NCBI GenBank assembly: GCA_023475265.1
Contig: JAMCWE010000262.1
Location: forward strand, 1 to 43,122
Reading direction: 5' to 3'
Source of the DNA: Bacteroidota bacterium
GTDB lineage: Bacteria; Bacteroidota; Ignavibacteria; Ignavibacteriales; Ignavibacteriaceae
DNA length: 43,122 nucleotides
Numbering within the stretch: position 1 is the first letter of the stretch; the number at the start of each line of letters is the position of its first letter. Position numbers and translations under genes: made by a program. Shown here piece by piece: positions 3,328 through 12,158 of this stretch. Under the pieces are notes generated by a model, which saw only the letters and a program-made list of their open reading frames with translations, was not told the DNA's origin and ran no database searches.

Positions 3328-4386
3328 ATGAAAATTTTAATATTAGCACTTTCGGGCATCGGCGATGCACTTATGTTTACACCAGCATTAAAATTAATTC
3401 GTGCGACTTATCCCGATGCACAAATCGATGCGCTTGTAATGTTCAAAGCCGTAAAGGATATGTATGAAAGAAATCCGGATATAAATAACATCCATTACTT
3501 TGAATTTCTCAACCGGGGATTTATTCCATCATTAAAATTTTTATTCGGCTTAAGGAAAAAATATGATATTTCAATAAATGTTTATCCTTCCAACCGGAAA
3601 GAATATAATGTAATCAATTTTTTAATCGGAGCGCCGAAACGCGCTGGTGTAAAATATTTAAGAATGAATGCTCGCGAACTCGGTTTCTTAAATAATATTT
3701 CTATCGTTGAAGACGATTCATTGCATAACGTTCAAACTAATATTAAGCTGGTTGAAAAATTATTAAATAAAAAATTTGCTGAAGAACCGGATCTCAATTT
3801 TCCATTGACTAAAGATGATGAAAATTTTGCCGAAGAATTTCTTATCAATACAAACATTAAAGAAAATGATTTGGTAATTGGTTTCCATCCAGGTTCGGCT
3901 ACTTTGAAGAATCATATAAAAAGAAGATGGGAACCGGAAAAGTTTATTCAGCTTGGTAAAAAATTAATTGAGACGAAAAATGCAAAGATATTAATTTTCG
4001 GCGGACCGGAAGAAGAAGATCTAAAAAAATTAATAGTCAATTCAATTGATTCCGAAAATGCAAAGCTGGTAGACACAAAAAATTTACCGCAAAGTGCAGC
4101 GGTATTAAAAAGATGCGATGTGTTTGTAACCAATGATTCGAGCATGCTGCATATTGCTTCCGCAATGAAAAGAAAAGTTGTGGCAATAATGGGGCCTACA
4201 AATCCAAATTACATTCATCCATGGAATACGGATTACAAAATTGTTTCGTTGAATTTGGAATGTTCTCCGTGTTTTATTTATTCACCACGGCAATTGATTT
4301 GTTTTCGGAATGATGTAAAATTCAAATGCATAAAAGAGCTGAGCGTTGATTTGGTTTATAATTCCGTTTTAGATTTTTTGAAATAA
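3328..4386 (+). CDS. GT9-family (heptosyltransferase-like) glycosyltransferase
   Basis: This 352-residue protein resembles the ADP-heptose:LPS heptosyltransferases (GT9). The N-terminal half starts with MKILILALSGIGDALMFTPAL, the usual GT9 opening in which the Asp is catalytic. The C-terminal half contains VIGFHPGS and FVTNDSSMLHIASAMKRKVVAIMGPTNP, the nucleotide-sugar site. A Cys-rich tail (LECSPCFIY...LICF...FKCI) is also common in the family. It acts at the cytoplasmic face of the inner membrane, likely adding a sugar to lipopolysaccharide core or another surface glycan; the exact donor is unknown. No strong ribosome site is visible before the ATG. The 3' end overlaps the convergent LOG-family gene by 18 bases. 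Confidence 0.85.
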   Translation: MKILILALSGIGDALMFTPALKLIRATYPDAQIDALVMFKAVKDMYERNPDINNIHYFEFLNRGFIPSLKFLFGLRKKYDISINVYPSNRKEYNVINFLIGAPKRAGVKYLRMNARELGFLNNISIVEDDSLHNVQTNIKLVEKLLNKKFAEEPDLNFPLTKDDENFAEEFLINTNIKENDLVIGFHPGSATLKNHIKRRWEPEKFIQLGKKLIETKNAKILIFGGPEEEDLKKLIVNSIDSENAKLVDTKNLPQSAAVLKRCDVFVTNDSSMLHIASAMKRKVVAIMGPTNPNYIHPWNTDYKIVSLNLECSPCFIYSPRQLICFRNDVKFKCIKELSVDLVYNSVLDFLK

Positions 4387-4914
4387 ATTCTTTTCTAAAT
4401 AATCTGCAATTTCTCCTGGCGTATCGAAACATTTTATTAAACCGTTTTTTCTTCCTTCATGTTCAATTTGTTTTTCCATTATGCTGACAATCTCTTTCCA
4501 CAATTTAGAATGACAGGCAACAGGCTTAATTACCGAAAGATTTTTATTCATAAATTCCCAAACAACCGAAAGTTCAAGCAAAGTACCGGTGCCGCCTTGA
4601 AGAATAACATATCCGTCGCCAAATTCAACAAGCTTTGAAATTCTTTCGAACAAAGTTTTACATTCAATTTGTTTTGTTAAATGCTTGCTCGGAGCCGTAC
4701 CCCAAATATCAACAGTAACTCCAATTGCTTCTGCACCATTTTCTTTCGCGCCTTTGGAAACTGCGTCCATTATTCCTTGGTAACCACCTGTGCAAACATT
4801 AAAACCTTTCTTTGCCAAAATAATTCCAAGCTCATAAGCTGTTTCATATTCTTTATCTCCCGGCTTCGGAATTGAACTGCCGAAAATTGTAATTGTTTTT
4901 TTCTTTTGATCCAT
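4369..4914 (-). CDS. LOG-family (Rossmann-fold) nucleotide-binding protein
   Basis: The protein has the fold of the LOG/'lysine decarboxylase-like' family, whose studied members are phosphoribohydrolases that cleave the ribose-5-phosphate bond of nucleoside monophosphates. It starts with TITIFGSSIPKPGDKEY, then has TGGYQGIMDAVSKGA and the signature GGTGTLLEL (usually PGGxGTxxE; here Q replaces P). About 181 residues is normal for the family. The frame extends to a TTG at 4920, but the ATG at 4914 (MDQKKKTITIFG) is the more natural start. The ribosome site is only purine-rich. Substrate is uncertain: cytokinin-type activity should not be assumed for this subgroup. It is convergent with the GT9 gene. 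Confidence 0.8.
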   Translation of the reverse strand: MDQKKKTITIFGSSIPKPGDKEYETAYELGIILAKKGFNVCTGGYQGIMDAVSKGAKENGAEAIGVTVDIWGTAPSKHLTKQIECKTLFERISKLVEFGDGYVILQGGTGTLLELSVVWEFMNKNLSVIKPVACHSKLWKEIVSIMEKQIEHEGRKNGLIKCFDTPGEIADYLEKNLFQKI

Positions 4915-5043
4915 GTGCAAAAATTTTTCTTTTTTCTGTATTTGAATTTAATTAAGATATAATCTTATCAATTGGAAAGGAGAAAAAATAAAAATAATGA
5001 AAATTTGAATTATCAAAATTAAGCTGTTATTTAATTTTAAAAT

Positions 5044-6012
5044 TTACTCGTAATAATTTTTATCCCATTTATGAACTTTTAATTCGTCCAGCAGCTTGGG
5101 TGAAAGCGATCCTTTTTTTACGCTTGCAATATTTGCAAAAAGATTTTTTTCCTTTCGCATTCCGGGAATGACCGATGTAACGGCATCAAAGCTTATGATG
5201 AATCGCAATGCTGCTTCGGCAAGAGATTGTGTTTCCAATTTCACATCATTCCAAATTTTATCAGCTCTTAATTTTACATCCACTTTTCTCTTATCGCGAA
5301 AATAATTATTGCGAAAATCGCCTACCGGAAATTCAGTAGACGGATTAATGTTGCCGGTTAATGCGCCTTCATCAAAAGGAACACGCGCAATAATGCTGAT
5401 ATTGTTCTCTTTGCAAAAAGGGAATAAGCGTTCAATTGGTTTTTGTTCGAAGATATTAAAGATTACCTGGTAGCTGTCAATTAATCCAGTCTTGCCTGCT
5501 TCAATTCCGTTTGTCGGCTGATGATCGTTTATAGAAATTCCCCAGTATCGAACCTTACCATCTTTTTTTAATTTTTGAACTGCTTCTTTCCAATCATCGC
5601 TGCGGCTCCACTTGTCATTCCATACATGAAATTGCATTAGGTCAACATAATCTCTTTTAAGATTTCTAAGACTTTCTTCTGTTTTTTTAATGATATGTTT
5701 TTTTGAAAATGATTCTTCTAAAGTTGAATTACCGGAAGCCGGCCATTCGTATTTTTGCGAAGGTATTTTCGAAGCAATGAACAATTTTTTACCTGTTTCT
5801 TTTTCAACTTCGCCTACCAGATTTTCGCTATGACCGTTGCCATAAACAAGTGCAGTATCGAAAAAATTTATTCCTTCATCAATAGCTTTAATTAATACTT
5901 TTTTTGATTCTATGTCATCGGCTCCAATCCACATTGATTTACCAATACCCCAGCAGCCGAAACCCAAGACAGATATAGATTGATTAGACTTTGCAAATTT
6001 TTTAAGCATCAT
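5044..6012 (-). CDS. Aldo/keto reductase
   Basis: This 322-residue NADPH-dependent oxidoreductase of the aldo/keto reductase superfamily forms a cytoplasmic (beta/alpha)8 barrel. The catalytic tetrad is complete: D52 and Y57 (NFFDTALVYGNGHSE), K82 (ASKIP) and H129 (LMQFHVW). The cofactor region near the C-terminus (AVTSVIPGMRKEKNLFANIA) is also typical. The family reduces aldehydes or ketones to alcohols, and the particular substrate cannot be read from sequence. The gene is monocistronic: its upstream region is the long divergent gap before the sigma factor gene, and the next gene on its strand (4914) is about 130 bases away with no overlap. The start MMLKKF offers two adjacent Mets; either is possible. 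Confidence 0.88.
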   Translation of the reverse strand: MMLKKFAKSNQSISVLGFGCWGIGKSMWIGADDIESKKVLIKAIDEGINFFDTALVYGNGHSENLVGEVEKETGKKLFIASKIPSQKYEWPASGNSTLEESFSKKHIIKKTEESLRNLKRDYVDLMQFHVWNDKWSRSDDWKEAVQKLKKDGKVRYWGISINDHQPTNGIEAGKTGLIDSYQVIFNIFEQKPIERLFPFCKENNISIIARVPFDEGALTGNINPSTEFPVGDFRNNYFRDKRKVDVKLRADKIWNDVKLETQSLAEAALRFIISFDAVTSVIPGMRKEKNLFANIASVKKGSLSPKLLDELKVHKWDKNYYE

Positions 6013-6320
6013 AAAAATTCAGCTTTGTTAGTTTAGTTAGGTGTTTTTCTTTTTAAATTATTTTACTTGATTTATCTCCAAATCAAAATAACATTTTAAA
6101 ACTTATTTACAAACTGATACACAAAAAATCAATTTATTAAGAAAGTAACTTTCTAAAGCGTGAAAGAAATCATAAAATTTTAATTAGCATTTTAATGAAG
6201 CTTAACCGGGCATTTGTTTAAAAGAATGAATATTTTAAAATAAGGTCCAATTAAAATTATAATTCACTTCACAACCTTTTTGAATAAACGAGGTCTAACT
6301 TAACAGAAGAAAAGGATTAG
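6013..6320. promoter_or_regulatory. Divergent regulatory region, possible ECF-type promoter
   Basis: This 308-base AT-rich gap divides the aldo/keto reductase gene from the ECF sigma operon. Close to the sigma gene there is AACC at 6273-6276 and GTCT at 6293-6296, separated by 16 bases. That resembles the general ECF promoter layout (AAC-type -35 box, GTC-type -10 box, 16-17 spacer) and would fit autoregulation, a common habit of such operons. The match is short and could be chance. No gene is seen in the gap. Confidence 0.3.
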
Positions 6321-6899
6321 ATGACACAAGAAGAAAACAACTTGATACTAGCGGCTCAGAAAGGAGATAGAACGGCTTTCGAAGATCTCATTTACCTTTA
6401 TGACAAAAATGTTCTCGGCATCGCTTATTCCTTTGCCGGAAGCAGCGAAGATGCTAAAGATATTTACCAGGAAGTTTTTTTGCGGGTCTTTAAGAGCATA
6501 AAGAAGTTTGAGTTCAGAAGCGAATTCTCCACCTGGCTTTACCGGATAACGACCAACGTTTGCCTGACGTATCGTACCCAGAAAAAGAAGCTAGCGTACA
6601 CTTCTTTGGATGAAGAATATGATGCTGAAGACGGTGAGCAGAGGTCGTTAGCCGATTCTCTGATCGGAAGCGGGAAGACAGACGACCAAGCTATCGGTTC
6701 CGAAATCTCCGAACAAATTGAAACTGGACTTGAAAAGCTTTCGCCGCAGCAAAAGATGGTTTTTACGCTGAAACATTTTAAAGGATATAAGATCAAGGAA
6801 ATTTCTTCAATGATGAATTGTACCGAAGGTACTGTGAAGAATTATCTCTTCTTTGCTACACAAAGGATGAGAGAACATTTAAAAGATTTTTTGGATTAG
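6321..6899 (+). CDS. ECF-type RNA polymerase sigma factor
   Basis: This 192-residue sigma-70 family factor has only regions 2 and 4, as in extracytoplasmic-function (group IV) sigma factors. Region 2 covers about residues 10-80 (ALEDLIYLYD-like helix, then DAKDIYQEVFLRVFKSI and FSTWLYRITTNVCLTYRT). Region 4 covers about 130-185 (LSPQQKMVFTLKHFKGYKIKEISSMMNCTEGTVKNYLFFATQRMR, the helix-turn-helix that reads the -35 box). An acidic linker of about 35 residues lies between. An AAGGA ribosome site precedes the ATG. The next gene, 9 bases downstream, encodes its likely membrane anti-sigma factor, so this is a transcription switch responding to an extracytoplasmic signal. Confidence 0.93.
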   Translation: MTQEENNLILAAQKGDRTAFEDLIYLYDKNVLGIAYSFAGSSEDAKDIYQEVFLRVFKSIKKFEFRSEFSTWLYRITTNVCLTYRTQKKKLAYTSLDEEYDAEDGEQRSLADSLIGSGKTDDQAIGSEISEQIETGLEKLSPQQKMVFTLKHFKGYKIKEISSMMNCTEGTVKNYLFFATQRMREHLKDFLD

Positions 6900-6908
6900 G
6901 AGTAAAAA

Positions 6909-7889
6909 ATGGATCATCAAATATTTAATGAAATGATTCAACTGGCGCTGCTTGATGAATTAAACGACGATGAAATGAAGAAGCTTCACCAGCATCTGAT
7001 CGAATGCAGCGACTGCCAGGCTGAGTATGATAGGCTGAACAAATATCTTTCTATCATTAATCAAAATAAAAGCGGAGCGGTTGACGACGAACTTTTGCAG
7101 GAAGCCAGAAATCAGTTCCGGAGAAAGCTTAATTATGATATTTCAAGACAATCAATTTTAGAAAAGTTATTTAGTGCGTTCAGAAAAAATATCTGGATTT
7201 ATAAACGACCCGCATTAGCCGGTGCATTTTCAATTGCTGTTGGCTTATTCGCCGGGTATTTAATTTTTTCACCGGGCAGTTCGTCAAATATGAATTTAAT
7301 TGGAGATAAAAATGGTGTTGAAGAAAATGCAACAACAATTTCTAATGTAAGATTCATTAACGATTCTTCCAGCACCGGCGAAGTCGCATTCACCTTTGAT
7401 GCAATTAAGCAGGTTACGATGAGAGGAAAGCTGAGCGATCCTTCAGTGCAGAGAATCTTAGCAGAAGCTCTTGTTAACGAAAAAAATCCAGGCACGAGAA
7501 TTCAAACTGTAAATGCGCTTGCAAATATTTCAAATAAGCAGGAAAGCTTGCCAACCGGTAAGTCTAATGTAAATCCAAAAGTAAAGTCGGCATTATTAAC
7601 GGCTTTAAAATATGACGGAAATCCTGCAGTCCGAATGGAAGCCTTAAAGGCATTACTTAATTTCCCGTTCGACAACGATATAAACGAAGCTTTGCTTTTC
7701 GTGCTTCAGCGCGATAAGAATTCCGGACTTCGTATTGCAGCTATTAACGGGCTTGCAAGCGCAACCCAGAATGGAAAGACAATCGATCCCGAAACAATTA
7801 AAATCTTAAATCAAAAAATTAAAAACGATGACAACGAATATGTACGCATTCGTGCTGCATCCTTAATAAAGGAAGAGAACATACAATGA
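6909..7889 (+). CDS. Membrane anti-sigma factor, zinc finger plus HEAT repeats
   Basis: The 326-residue protein starts with an anti-sigma zinc-binding domain: H29, C33 and C36 form the H-x3-C-x2-C motif (HLIECSDC) that holds ECF sigma factors. One membrane helix follows at about residues 102-120 (ALAGAFSIAVGLFAGYLIF). The C-terminal ~155 residues (about 170-323) hold HEAT-like helical repeats, seen as repeated hydrophobic pairs ending in 'VRMEALKALLNF', 'LRIAAINGLAS' and 'VRIRAASLI'. With the zinc finger inside the cell, the HEAT domain should face the periplasm and may sense a protein partner or be clipped by proteases. It lies 9 bases after the sigma gene, and its stop overlaps the start of the DUF4097 gene (ATGA), so the three are one unit. 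Confidence 0.88.
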   Translation: MDHQIFNEMIQLALLDELNDDEMKKLHQHLIECSDCQAEYDRLNKYLSIINQNKSGAVDDELLQEARNQFRRKLNYDISRQSILEKLFSAFRKNIWIYKRPALAGAFSIAVGLFAGYLIFSPGSSSNMNLIGDKNGVEENATTISNVRFINDSSSTGEVAFTFDAIKQVTMRGKLSDPSVQRILAEALVNEKNPGTRIQTVNALANISNKQESLPTGKSNVNPKVKSALLTALKYDGNPAVRMEALKALLNFPFDNDINEALLFVLQRDKNSGLRIAAINGLASATQNGKTIDPETIKILNQKIKNDDNEYVRIRAASLIKEENIQ

Positions 7890-9070
7890 AAGCTATAAGA
7901 CTAACAGCAGCTTTATTATTTTTCTCGTCTTTGGCTGTTATATTGAAAGCAGCGGATGGCGATGACGTAACAAAATCATTCAAGGTTAACAAAGGCGGTA
8001 CGCTTAAAGTATATATTATGACCGGCGATATAACAGTTGATACCTGGAATAAGAACGAAGTAAATGTTTCGATTGCAAATATTGATGAGAACCAGAATAA
8101 CCTCCTAAATATAAGTCAGTCCGGGAACAATGTTACTGTAAAATTTAACGGCAGCGGATACTACGGCAACTCTAATGTCAAAGTCTCCGTTCCATCGGAA
8201 TATAATTTGAATTTGCAGACAAGCCAGGGAGATGTGCAGCTTTCCAATAATTTAAAAGGGAGTGTGCAGATTGAAACCAGAAGCGGAGATATTACGCTCG
8301 CAAGTATTAACGGATATTTGAAAGCTCTGACCAACGGCGGCGACATTACCTTAAACGCAGTAAACGGCACTGCCGATGTTACAACATACGGCGGAGATAT
8401 TACAACCGGAAATGTAAATGGCAATCTTTCACTTTCAACCATGGGCGGAGATATTGAAGCACAGAACATTACCGGCAAAGCTGACATTTCTACCAGGGGC
8501 GGTACAATAAATTTATTGAACGTTGGAAAAGATCTTCACGCAATAACTAACGGCGGCGATATTACAACCGGGGATGTCGGCGGAAACGCAGATATAAGCA
8601 CCATGGGCGGAAGCATCCACATGAAAAAAGTTTCCGGCAGCGCAATATTAAAAACCAATGGCGGTAATATTAAGCTTTTCGGCGCTTCGGGCTCAACTAA
8701 AGCAAGAACATTCGGCGGCAATCTTGAATTGTATAATATCAACGGCTCCGTTGATGCGAGCACTAATAGCGGAGATATTTATATTGAATTGAAACCCGGC
8801 GGCAGCAGCAGCAGCATTGCTTCCATGAACGGCGGCGTAAAACTTTTTATCGATCCATCGGCAAAAGCTACAATAAATGCTGTGGCGTACGGCGTTCAGT
8901 ACGGCGAATCAATTAATGATTACATCAAATCAGATTTCCCGATGAAGAGATCCGAAACCTCTCAATACAGCAGTTCAACAAAAGCTACAATTACTTTAAA
9001 TGGCGGTGGAAGCAATATAAATGTTAGATCGGATAACGACCGCATCGAAATAAGAAAATTGAAAAAGTAA
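7886..9070 (+). CDS. Secreted DUF4097-type beta-repeat protein
   Basis: The 394-residue product has a signal peptide (MKAIRLTAALLFFSSLAVILKA) and a long right-handed beta-helix-like ladder. From T112 to T293 the same 18-residue rung recurs: Thr-x-Gly-Gly-Asp-Ile at the start of each turn, then a hydrophobic strand and an Asn/Ser-Gly turn. There are eleven starts, in exact 18-residue steps apart from one extra residue after the first. This is the DUF4097 'putative adhesin' repeat. The location is periplasm or outer surface. It overlaps the anti-sigma gene by four bases, so its expression and probably its role are tied to the ECF system, either as the regulated output or as a partner for the HEAT sensor (inference). 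Confidence 0.85.
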   Translation: MKAIRLTAALLFFSSLAVILKAADGDDVTKSFKVNKGGTLKVYIMTGDITVDTWNKNEVNVSIANIDENQNNLLNISQSGNNVTVKFNGSGYYGNSNVKVSVPSEYNLNLQTSQGDVQLSNNLKGSVQIETRSGDITLASINGYLKALTNGGDITLNAVNGTADVTTYGGDITTGNVNGNLSLSTMGGDIEAQNITGKADISTRGGTINLLNVGKDLHAITNGGDITTGDVGGNADISTMGGSIHMKKVSGSAILKTNGGNIKLFGASGSTKARTFGGNLELYNINGSVDASTNSGDIYIELKPGGSSSSIASMNGGVKLFIDPSAKATINAVAYGVQYGESINDYIKSDFPMKRSETSQYSSSTKATITLNGGGSNINVRSDNDRIEIRKLKK

Positions 9071-9077
9071 AAAAACT

Positions 9078-9132
9078 AAGGTATAGCGGTATAATGGTAT
9101 AAGGGCTTTATATCGCTATACCCATATACCTT
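9078..9132. repeat. 55-bp GGTATA-type palindrome after DUF4097 gene
   Basis: The segment begins AAGGTATA (9078-9085) and ends with the exact complement TATACCTT (9125-9132). Inside, the 14 bases at 9080-9093 pair with those at 9109-9122 with one mismatch. GGTATA recurs three times on the plus strand, so alternative foldings exist. It starts 8 bases after the stop codon and has no downstream T tract, so it may be a repeat element or mRNA 3' stem rather than a classical terminator. Confidence 0.7.
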
Positions 9133-9232
9133 CATTCTCCGCACATTTCTTCTTGCCGAAAATTTTTTTTCAGTGTAACTTACCAGCCAAATTGCAACAA
9201 CATTTTTATTTTAATTCCATCCGGGAGAAAAA

Positions 9233-9934
9233 ATGAAATCATTACCAGCACTTAATAATTTTCCAATTAAGACGCTTAACTTCTTGAAAAAGCTTTCCAA
9301 AAATAATTCGCGTGAGTGGTTTGAAGCTCACCGTGAAGATTACAATTCCGATTTCTTAGAACCGGCGCTGCAGCTCGTCGTTGAGCTTGGAGAAAGACTT
9401 TCGACAATCGCACCAAATATCCAGGCTGTTCCGAAGATTGATAAATCAATATTCAGGCTTCACCGCGATGTCCGATTCAGCAAGGATAAATCGCCGTACA
9501 AAACCAATCTCGGAATTTATTTCTGGGAAGGCAAAAAGAAAATGGATAGCCCCGGATTTTATTTCGAGATAAACACAAAAGGATTTTTCTACGGCTCAGG
9601 AATTTATATGCCGTCAAAAGAACAATGGAAGCTTTATCGCGATGCGGTTTCAAATCCGGCGCTTGGAAAAGAATTGGATAGTGCTGTAAAAAAAGTTTTG
9701 AAGAAGGATAATTATTCACTTGGAGGAAAGAAATATAAAAAAGTTCCGAAGGGATACGATCCGGAGTCACCTTATGCGGGATACCTTCTCCATGAAGGAC
9801 TTTATACTTTTTATGACAGTGAAAATATAAATGAGTTGACGAAGGTTGATGTTGTGGATTTTTCTTTTAAGAAATTTAAGGACATGCTTCCGGTTCACCA
9901 GTGGCTGGTAAAAATTCTCGAAGGAGTTAAATGA
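9233..9934 (+). CDS. DUF2461 family protein (TIGR02453 type)
   Basis: The 233-residue protein matches the DUF2461 family by its opening (LNFLKKLSKNNSREWFEAHR), the IFRLHRDVRFSKDKSPYKTN block around residues 80-100 and the later GFYFEI and GSGIYMPS strands. The family is widespread, soluble and of unknown biochemical role. It has no signal or membrane segment. Its last four bases overlap the ATG of the ABC transporter ATPase gene (ATGA), which suggests a co-transcribed set of three genes. Why an exporter would be tied to DUF2461 is unclear. The start is preceded by GGGAGAAA, a good ribosome site. Confidence 0.85.
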   Translation: MKSLPALNNFPIKTLNFLKKLSKNNSREWFEAHREDYNSDFLEPALQLVVELGERLSTIAPNIQAVPKIDKSIFRLHRDVRFSKDKSPYKTNLGIYFWEGKKKMDSPGFYFEINTKGFFYGSGIYMPSKEQWKLYRDAVSNPALGKELDSAVKKVLKKDNYSLGGKKYKKVPKGYDPESPYAGYLLHEGLYTFYDSENINELTKVDVVDFSFKKFKDMLPVHQWLVKILEGVK

Positions 9935-10848
9935 TATCCATTAAAAATGTTACCAAAAAATTTCCAACTGTTACCGCACTGGATAATATCTCGCTCGACA
10001 TTAAGGAAAAAGAATTTTTCGGCTTGCTCGGGCCGAACGGTGCGGGCAAATCAACTTTGATGAATCTTATCATCGGCTATCTTGATGCAGACGAAGGCGA
10101 GCTGACTGTAGCCGGTGAAAAAGTCACCCGCAACAATCTTGAGTCAAGAAAAAAGATCGGCTTGGTGCCGCAGTCAATCGCGCTGTACGATGATATTTCC
10201 GCTCAAGAAAACCTGGAAATCTTTGGATCATTTTTCGGAATCAAAAAAAATCTTCTTCGCGCAGTCATCGCAGAAAATCTTAACCGCGTAGAACTTTATG
10301 ATAGAAGAAAAGATAAAGTAAAAGGATTTTCCGGCGGAATGAAGCGGCGCTTAAATATTGCTGCAAGCCTGCTTCACGATCCGGAAATATTATTGTGCGA
10401 TGAGCCTACTGTCGGAGTCGATCCGCAATCGCGTAATGCCATCTTCGATTATCTCGAAAAGCTAAATGAAGAAGGCAAGACGATCATCTACACAACTCAC
10501 TACATGGAAGAAGCAGAAAGGTTGTGCAGCCGCATTGCAATAATCGATCACGGAAAAATAATTGGCGCTGGCTCGCTTGATGAATTGCTCTTGCTTCTTC
10601 CTTACGAGCAGACAATTCTCATCAGCAAAAATCAATTGACTGAACATAAAAAAGATTTGTTCGGCAAATTCGGCACGATTCTGAATGATCAGGAAAAGTA
10701 TGAACTGAAACCTTTTGAAAAATTAAAACTCTCGGATTTTTTCAAAGCGATGGAAGAGAACGGAATCGGATACAATTTTATCGATGTGAACAAGCCGTCA
10801 TTGGAAGCGCTTTTTCTTCACCTAACTGGAAGGAGATTGAGAGATTGA
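9931..10848 (+). CDS. ABC-2 type transporter ATP-binding protein
   Basis: This 305-residue ATPase subunit powers an exporter at the inner membrane. Visible motifs in order: Walker A GPNGAGKST (residues 34-42), Q-loop VPQSIALYDDIS, signature FSGGMKRRL, Walker B ILLCDEPTVGVDP, and the H-loop TTHYMEEAE. The C-terminal ~80 residues form the extra domain common in drug, lipid or polysaccharide exporters of the ABC-2 class (CcmA/NatA-like). The start overlaps the DUF2461 stop, and the stop overlaps the permease start, so translation is coupled through all three genes. The transported substrate cannot be read from sequence. Confidence 0.93.
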   Translation: MISIKNVTKKFPTVTALDNISLDIKEKEFFGLLGPNGAGKSTLMNLIIGYLDADEGELTVAGEKVTRNNLESRKKIGLVPQSIALYDDISAQENLEIFGSFFGIKKNLLRAVIAENLNRVELYDRRKDKVKGFSGGMKRRLNIAASLLHDPEILLCDEPTVGVDPQSRNAIFDYLEKLNEEGKTIIYTTHYMEEAERLCSRIAIIDHGKIIGAGSLDELLLLLPYEQTILISKNQLTEHKKDLFGKFGTILNDQEKYELKPFEKLKLSDFFKAMEENGIGYNFIDVNKPSLEALFLHLTGRRLRD

Positions 10849-12158
10849 AAACAATTTTACAGCTTATCAAAAAAGATTACATTCTTTTCTGGCATGATAA
10901 ACCCGCTGTCAGTCTTACCTTCGTGGTTCCGATATTTCTCATCTTTTTATTCGGTTCGATATTCAGCGGTGTTAGCAGCGGACCGACAGGCATCGACATT
11001 GCATTCATGAATAATAGCGATTCTAAGATTGCCAAGAAGCTTGAATCTGTTCTCGATACAACTCAAGCCTTTCATCTTGTTAGAGAATTCCGTGATGACA
11101 ACGGTAACATGGTTTCCTTTGATACAAATTCAATTAAGGATTTTGTGCGCAAAGGAAATGCAGTTGCAGCGCTTGTAATTCCTAAAGATGCTTTCACAGA
11201 TACATCAATGGGATTGAAATTAAAATTCTTTTATGATCCGAAGAACGATATGGAAATGCAGATGATTGAAGGCGTGCTTACGCAAAGAGTGATGACCCAG
11301 ATGCCAAGCTTATTTATGACCGGCATGCAGCATAAGGCTGAAACTTATTTAGGAACGGACAAAGGAAAAAACTTCAACAAAAAGATTGCTGAGACAGTTG
11401 GTAAATATTTCAATGTAGATACCGCAAAAATCCTTCATTGGTCAAGCTATGATTTTGCCGATTCGTCGAACATCGACAGCGCTTCAAGTAAATCCAATTT
11501 CTTCTCCGATCTTCTTCAACTTGATAAAGAGCAGCTTGTTGGAAAAGAAGTAAATAACCCTAATGCAACGCGCAGCGTAGGCGGCTGGGCGATGATGTTC
11601 CTCTTATTTACATTAACAGCAACATCAACTTCGCTGTTTGATGAAAATAAAAGCGGCGTAGTGCTTAGGATTCTTTCTGCACCGGTGTCACGCGTTCATA
11701 TTTTGTGGGGAAAATACCTTTACAATTTTTCACTCGGCTGCATTCAGCTTCTCGTAATGTTTTTTGTTGGCTATCTTCTTTTTAGGATTGATATTTTTTC
11801 ACACTTTTTCAATTTACTTCTGGTCATCATCGCCGGTGCTTTGGCTTGCACTGCATTCGGAATGCTGCTGGCTGCGGTAAGCAAAACTTCGGCTCAAGCA
11901 AACGGTCTCGGCACTTTGCTCATCTTAACGATGAGCGGGATCGGCGGGGCCTGGTTTCCAACCTTTATCCTTCCGCCGTTCATACAAATTCTTAGCAAAT
12001 TCTCGCTTGTTTATTGGGCGATGGAAGGATTTATGAACGTTCTTTGGCGCGGTTCAAATACTTTAGAAATTCTTCCGAATGTCGGAGTGCTCATCGGTAT
12101 AGCGGCTGTGGTTAATATATTCAGTATTATTCGCTTTAAGAAAGGTAATTTGTTTTGA
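10845..12158 (+). CDS. ABC-2 type transporter permease
   Basis: The 437-residue membrane subunit of the ABC exporter has the ABC-2 layout. There is one N-terminal membrane helix (PAVSLTFVVPIFLIFLFGSIF), a long extracytoplasmic segment of about 190 residues, then five helices from about residue 240 onward. The typical phrases TATSTSLFDENKSGVVLRILSAPVSR and GGAWFPTFILPPFIQILSKFS are present, as in YhgE/NatB-like and DrrB-like permeases. The start is TTG at 10845, inside the ATPase stop codon region, with AAGGAG upstream. A drug, lipid or small-molecule export role is likely, but the cargo is unknown. Stem-loops follow the stop. Confidence 0.9.
   Translation: MKTILQLIKKDYILFWHDKPAVSLTFVVPIFLIFLFGSIFSGVSSGPTGIDIAFMNNSDSKIAKKLESVLDTTQAFHLVREFRDDNGNMVSFDTNSIKDFVRKGNAVAALVIPKDAFTDTSMGLKLKFFYDPKNDMEMQMIEGVLTQRVMTQMPSLFMTGMQHKAETYLGTDKGKNFNKKIAETVGKYFNVDTAKILHWSSYDFADSSNIDSASSKSNFFSDLLQLDKEQLVGKEVNNPNATRSVGGWAMMFLLFTLTATSTSLFDENKSGVVLRILSAPVSRVHILWGKYLYNFSLGCIQLLVMFFVGYLLFRIDIFSHFFNLLLVIIAGALACTAFGMLLAAVSKTSAQANGLGTLLILTMSGIGGAWFPTFILPPFIQILSKFSLVYWAMEGFMNVLWRGSNTLEILPNVGVLIGIAAVVNIFSIIRFKKGNLF

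Follow-up and report, generated by a model that had tools for sequence, protein, structure and literature searches.

A probable autoregulated envelope-stress module of an ECF sigma factor, a HEAT-repeat anti-sigma factor, and a putatively secreted Toastrack (DUF4097) protein in Ignavibacteriaceae

The window analyzed here is the whole stretch of 43,122 nucleotides of contig JAMCWE010000262.1, from a Bacteroidota bacterium of the family Ignavibacteriaceae (assembly GCA_023475265.1). At positions 6321–9070 of its forward strand, three consecutive genes encode an extracytoplasmic function (ECF) sigma factor, a membrane anti-sigma factor with a C-terminal HEAT domain, and a putatively secreted DUF4097 (Toastrack) protein. 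We consider that this trio probably constitutes an autoregulated envelope-stress module. The anatomy of the proteins, the gene order, the overlap between the last two genes, their conservation, the promoter element, and the leader peptide are all observed. An initial annotation of this DNA had named the same trio, and the open reading frames (ORFs) and Pfam domains confirm all three genes, as well as the four-base overlap, an ATGA shared by the anti-sigma and DUF4097 ORFs.

The three-gene order, which had been named beforehand as a check, proved to be conserved in related genomes. We collected 157 anti-sigma ORFs that are distinct in their last 150 residues, of which 151 cover at least 200 of the 320 profile positions and are called near-full-length. 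They come from the class of the window, from other families of its phylum, and from one Acidobacteriota metagenome-assembled genome, where the full trio lies on the chromosome (locus L066). For the adjacency counts, at least 600 bases of downstream room were needed for DUF4097, and at least 500 bases upstream with a gap below 150 for the sigma gene. Counted in this way, DUF4097 lies directly downstream of 144 of the 146 near-full-length HEAT anti-sigma genes with room, and 141 of 148 have a sigma gene as their upstream neighbor, while the other flanking genes vary between loci. At the 146 junctions with an adjacent DUF4097 gene, the exact four-base overlap recurs in 75, and a gap of −1 to 3 bases is found in 34 more. 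Furthermore, at least two DUF4097 genes follow in at least 49 of the 151 ORFs with downstream room, a lower bound as many loci had short flanks. The exceptions are few. Among the seven loci without an adjacent sigma gene, one lies further up in four (L023, L072, L217, and L241) and none was detected in three (L055, L224, and L267). The two near-full-length anti-sigma genes without an adjacent DUF4097 gene are those of L085 and L087; L084, L096, and L104 also lack it, and these match the anti-sigma domain (ASD) part only.

In a set of 59 genomes that includes its own, the anti-sigma factor was matched in 38, and 30 loci were fetched from this set. A sigma-like ORF lies upstream in all 30 (a short one of 139 aa in L023) and DUF4097 directly downstream in 28, the other two being at a contig edge (L010) or with about 216 bases left (L006). 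Across the class, 120 of 391 genomes had a strong anti-sigma match (E ≤ 1e-25), and these represent 64 of the 189 genera. In a sample of the phylum, 199 of 395 genomes had a match at 1e-3; among the matches listed, 44 combined E < 1e-25 with a long match, and the others covered the ASD or the HEAT part. Other families of the phylum have shorter versions of the module (e.g., L089 and L106). Within the genus, 4 of 13 genomes (G002, G006, G007, and G012) lack the anti-sigma factor, the sigma ortholog, and the module-type DUF4097 gene alike, and their best other ECF factor is 31–36% identical to the sigma; three of the four are 79–89% complete, so that only G007 (99%) gives a firm absence. Two sets of sigma, HEAT anti-sigma, and DUF4097 genes lie close together in L093 and L106 (head-to-head) and in L102 (same strand), which suggests paralogous modules.

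The sigma operon is very likely autoregulated, since an ECF-type promoter element is conserved in front of the sigma gene. The initial annotation had placed such a promoter at 6273–6296; the element is real but ends two bases further downstream, at 6298. In the window, AACCTT-N14/15-GTCTA has one match against 0.02 expected. AAC(C)-N-GTCTA precedes the sigma gene in 29 of the 30 order-level loci, 27 of them with AACC. In L022, the single miss, the annotated start codon lies too far upstream; 20 nt before a shorter start in that genome (G020, L151), the strict motif is present. Over a wider locus set that includes these 30, the count is 46 of 88. A looser pattern was found before the sigma gene in 28 of 30 order loci (0.38 in dinucleotide shuffles), 46 of 61 class-fetched loci (0.82), and 26 of 58 other loci, a mix from family to phylum together with L066 (0.70). 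Of the 142 loci whose anti-sigma match spans 250 positions or more, 100 have it (1.4). The pattern owes its form to the order set and was relaxed partly after inspection of L085 and L087, so that the class set gives the fairer test. It counts against the module as proposed that the looser pattern was not found upstream of the sigma gene in 42 of 142 loci, and AAC(C)-N-GTCTA not in most of the short Bacteroidota-type loci.

The first protein is small and has the sigma2 and sigma4 domains only, which places it in the ECF class. Both Pfam matches exceed their cut-offs (Sigma70_r2, 63.8 bits; Sigma70_r4_2, 56.8 bits), as does TIGR02937 (111.3 bits against 42.9). It misses the curated cut-offs of SigW (NF007223, 120.6 against 209 bits) and RpoE (TIGR02939, 98.5 against 236.15 bits).

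The anti-sigma factor matches HEAT_2 with 53.2 bits (E = 3.7e-14, cut-off 27.7), and its zf-HC2 score of 21.8 bits is marginally below the cut-off of 22.2. Its AlphaFold2 model (mean predicted local distance difference test score, pLDDT, 84.7; predicted template modelling score, pTM, 0.52) begins with four helices (residues 3–79) and a helix at 83–97, followed by a helix at 99–120 that we read as transmembrane. Beyond it come a low-confidence linker (125–138), two strands (142–167), and eight helices (178–325). The four-helix ASD with its HxxxCxxC motif makes the N-terminus of class I (ASDI/zf-HC2) type, with a marginal zf-HC2 score, and the tandem helix pairs together with the profile match make it a HEAT repeat protein. 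The model of the HEAT domain matched HEAT/ARM-like PDB structures, the best with an E-value of 2.2e-4. The parts listed by the initial annotation (sigma-binding domain, membrane helix, and HEAT repeats) are thus present, but the conserved two-strand segment between the membrane helix and the HEAT repeats had been overlooked. By hydropathy, a transmembrane-like stretch lies between the ASD and the HEAT domain in 151 of the 157 collected ORFs. The HEAT domain therefore probably faces the outer side of the membrane, a placement against which it counts that only 97 of these 151 stretches show a positive-inside bias. The proposal of a zinc-binding sigma trap fared less well. The window protein carries the HxxxCxxC motif, but the motif occurs in only 102 of the 151 near-full-length relatives and is absent from 49, so that zinc is not essential to this architecture. 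In six loci (L013, L014, L017, L018, L021, and L027), the zinc ligands are lost and the rest of the anti-sigma domain is kept, as expected of zinc-free variants.

Table 1. Features of the sigma factor operon, in coordinates of the window
Feature	Position	Strand	Basis
ECF-type promoter: −35 AACCTT (6273–6278), −10 GTCTAA (6293–6298), 22 nt before the sigma start codon	6273..6298	+	motif and relatives
ECF sigma factor, 192 aa, sigma2 and sigma4	6321..6899	+	ORF, Pfam
Membrane anti-sigma factor with C-terminal HEAT domain, 326 aa	6909..7889	+	ORF, Pfam, AlphaFold2
HxxxCxxC motif (H29, C33, C36) of the anti-sigma domain	6993..7016	+	sequence motif
Predicted transmembrane helix, residues 99–120	7203..7268	+	model helix, hydropathy
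Conserved two-strand segment between transmembrane helix and HEAT domain, residues 142–167, consensus I.N.RF...GEVEF.FDAVKPV	7332..7409	+	alignment, model
HEAT-like domain, eight helices, residues 178–325, predicted periplasmic	7440..7883	+	HEAT_2, model
Putatively secreted DUF4097/Toastrack beta-solenoid, 394 aa, start inside the ATGA overlap	7886..9070	+	ORF, Pfam, AlphaFold2

The third protein belongs to the DUF4097/Toastrack family by its match to PF13349 (55.1 bits, cut-off 22.9) and by its fold. The AlphaFold2 model (mean pLDDT 90.1, pTM 0.84) is a beta-rich solenoid preceded by a leader helix at residues 2–22 (7889–7951). A hydrophobic leader is present on 147 of 148 first-copy DUF4097 proteins, and, together with the transmembrane-like stretch of the anti-sigma factors, it supports the topology first predicted, a secreted third protein and a periplasmic HEAT domain. 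A Pfam search at E ≤ 1 returned no family other than DUF4097, hence no RseB-type match, and the protein missed the curated LiaG cut-off (NF049997, 52.5 against 285 bits). The best Foldseek matches of the model were 3pet, 3ljy, 3lyc, and 4opw (E from 1.3e-6 to about 2e-4), Bacteroides/Parabacteroides "putative adhesin" and related structures. These are shorter (about 220–240 aa) and 10–15% identical, with TM-scores of 0.19–0.35 by query, and the resemblance is one of fold class only. Three of the matched structures, 3ljy, 3jx8, and 3lyc, have near-consecutive Parabacteroides distasonis protein accessions, which may mark another Toastrack gene cluster.

Does the sigma factor act beyond its own operon? 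In its own genome, the strict motif has five sites against one in the control. Apart from the operon, these stand before a MoxR gene and the one further DUF4097 gene present there, and the last two lie inside opposite-strand genes. The further DUF4097 gene (L115:2193-3140; G000 C72:41692-42639) has a lipobox-like SAC|G and the element 30 nt upstream. The MoxR AAA ATPase gene (L116:1181-2164, G000 C91), followed by a 291-aa ORF, has AACCTT-N15-GTCTAA 57 nt upstream, and a DUF5916/CBM9 gene has a one-mismatch element about 25 nt before its start. Across 25 genomes we found 90 strict sites and examined 83, the remaining 7 being sigma-operon sites. Of these 83, 36 fall 15–35 nt ahead of an ORF of 150 aa or more; random points drawn from the same loci do so in 157 of 2969 cases (5.3%). 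The 36 comprise 12 sigma operons and 24 others, among which family searches placed 8 DUF4097 genes, 11 DUF5916 genes, and one PspC gene (L165). Of the 9 sigma-bearing genomes of the genus, 8 have the 880-aa type of DUF5916 gene, compared with none of the 4 sigma-lacking ones (Fisher p = 0.007). In G391 and G276, the genomes of L085 and L087, DUF4097 genes exist elsewhere, and unlinked ones of ~400 aa have AACCAT-N15-GTC[AC]A near their starts, the same as their sigma operons. This pattern, written post hoc after inspection, was not found at the shorter DUF4097 loci L287 and L294 or elsewhere in the six loci scanned. It fits DUF4097 being a core target even when unlinked.

Several counts weigh against such a regulon. 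In 12 other genomes of the order, the strict motif is no more frequent than in the reversed control (40 sites each), and in the genus it shows a mild excess (50 against 35). The motif precedes 6 of the 9 copies of the 880-aa DUF5916 gene and is absent at 3. The DUF4097 lipoprotein gene retains an ECF-like promoter in the sigma-lacking G006, G007, and G012, and each of the four sigma-lacking genomes has looser elements in front of shorter DUF5916 genes (8 of 14 such copies overall). Since promoters are kept where the sigma is missing, probably either another ECF sigma of similar specificity shares these targets or the elements are relics. With these counts and promoters, the regulon beyond the operon is suggestive only. 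Some candidate targets were set aside. The motifs within opposite-strand genes, in C94 (ribosomal S9) and C154 (radical-SAM/Mob_synth_C), were judged chance; an LTXXQ gene (L170) has the motif 38 nt away, outside the 15–35 band; and the MoxR promoter (CGTCTAA, gap 47–82) is doubtful, as its recurrence in the genus extends to the sigma-lacking G006 and G007, a further point against the wider regulon.

Could the secreted DUF4097 protein contact the HEAT domain? Coevolution was evaluated by mutual information with average product correction and by mean-field direct coupling analysis on 133 paired rows of the 157 ORFs, the rows left out having failed filters on coverage, completeness, length, or on whether sigma and DUF4097 were both there. 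Among the top 200, fewer inter-protein pairs than expected appeared for all protein pairs; as this includes the sigma/ASD positive control, the analysis had no power to tell contact from its absence. No ORF in the collected loci matched both the HEAT anti-sigma and the DUF4097 profiles, as a fusion would. In 7 loci the two genes are in the same frame and readable as one chain, and in the resulting mixed read-through alignment the DUF4097-only rows were 10–15% identical to the query, which we took as misalignment. Mirror-tree partial correlations, with shared descent still in them, were 0.38 for HEAT–DUF4097, 0.17 for ASD–DUF4097, 0.51 for sigma–HEAT, and 0.33 for sigma–DUF4097. We regard a contact as possible, with the balance tipped slightly against it. 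DUF4097 is likely at least a product of the switch because of the autoregulation and the ECF-type promoters that recur before DUF4097 genes.

If the parts act together as we propose, the N-terminal domain of the anti-sigma factor would hold the ECF sigma factor at the inner face of the membrane, and the HEAT domain on the outer side would read a protein cue. Envelope stress would release the hold, and the freed sigma would transcribe its own operon from the AACCTT–GTCTAA promoter, as well as envelope genes with the element, including those of Toastrack (DUF4097) and DUF5916/CBM9 proteins. The co-translated, secreted Toastrack would accumulate outside and would most likely serve as an envelope-protective product and as a feedback partner of the HEAT domain, in an RseB-like role. 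The direction of feedback and the Toastrack–HEAT contact are parts that we infer, as are the sequestration by the N-terminal domain, the side of the HEAT domain, and the release on envelope stress, which are drawn from other ECF systems.

In its most specific form, this scheme becomes a receptor–ligand loop: the outward HEAT domain may be a dedicated receptor for the Toastrack that the operon itself makes, and free Toastrack reaching it would report the state of the envelope. We advance this only tentatively; if true, the loop would be a widespread homeostatic circuit, closed on itself and separate from those of RseB and Lia. An equally tentative possibility is that DUF4097 is output only, repairing or shielding the envelope, while the HEAT domain senses misfolded envelope proteins, another partner, or a protease. 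This would explain why several DUF4097 genes, not all of them linked to the anti-sigma gene, have ECF-type promoters, why the fusion search was silent, as was the coevolution search (with an equally silent sigma/ASD control), and why two near-full-length HEAT anti-sigma factors have no adjacent DUF4097. It accounts less well for the near-constant adjacency and the recurrent four-base overlap while other flanks change, or for the joint absence of the module parts in the genus.

The direction favored by the initial annotation, in which DUF4097 binds the HEAT domain as an activating ligand and so frees the sigma, appears unlikely. The two proteins share an operon and a predicted compartment, and autoregulation would then yield positive feedback and a bistable switch; on the other hand, the known downstream periplasmic partners of membrane anti-sigma factors, such as RseB, act negatively, and neither coevolution (again with a silent control) nor fusion supports the contact. 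DUF4097 may just as naturally be read as a feedback partner of RseB type. Finally, Toastrack might be an intracellular scaffold beneath the membrane, as argued for PspC/Lia-linked Toastracks in the main text of Ravi et al. 2024 (PMC11237479), and the HEAT domain of the trio might likewise be inside. With the near-universal leader, the leader helix of the model, and the transmembrane-like stretch between the ASD and HEAT domains, we consider this very improbable for the trio.

Divergent from the operon lies an aldo/keto reductase gene (Pfam; 5044–6012). By eye, look-alike proteins occupy this position in L002, L006, and L007, and a DUF5916 gene does so in L008 and L009.

Several components of the trio have known counterparts. 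The class I (ASDI) anti-sigma factors of PMC7406223 resemble that of the window in having an N-terminal helical HxxxCxxC domain, encoded beside an ECF sigma gene, and a variable partner domain, whereas a HEAT partner domain is not mentioned in the main text of that paper, in which "heat" occurs twice, in a heatmap and in a heat-shock reference. The Toastrack of the phage shock protein (PSP)/Lia envelope stress response is a DUF4097 protein coupled to transcriptional control, and the main text of PMC11237479 mentions an operonically linked sigma factor for Toastrack systems; the term "anti-sigma" is absent from it. The PspC gene of one relative that carries the element (L165) links the trio to these systems, and no PspA, PspC, or LiaI was present among the Pfam-scanned neighbors in 3328–12158. 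Unlike the PSP/Lia Toastrack, that of the window starts with a leader peptide, is paired with a HEAT anti-sigma factor, and is predicted to lie outside, whereas the main text of PMC11237479 places the Toastrack of other systems inside the cell. PMC3174227 and PMC2841595, considered as prior descriptions of HEAT repeats with anti-sigma factors, are unrelated in their accessible text. The component parts are thus known, and the combination of a HEAT-domain anti-sigma factor with DUF4097 was not found described in the literature searched, although the ECF reclassification (10.1093/nar/gkaa1229) may list such a group.

Toastrack/DUF4097 proteins are widespread and functionally obscure, and the trio offers them a predicted compartment, a candidate for their receptor, and a circuit that may govern their transcription. 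In its order of sigma factor, single-pass membrane anti-sigma factor, and periplasmic protein, the trio resembles RpoE–RseA–RseB of E. coli and AlgU–MucA–MucB. The ECF promoter of RpoE–RseA–RseB is autoregulated, as predicted for the trio. Compared with that system, the third gene of the trio encodes a DUF4097 beta-solenoid, and the outer part of the anti-sigma factor consists of a two-strand segment and HEAT repeats.

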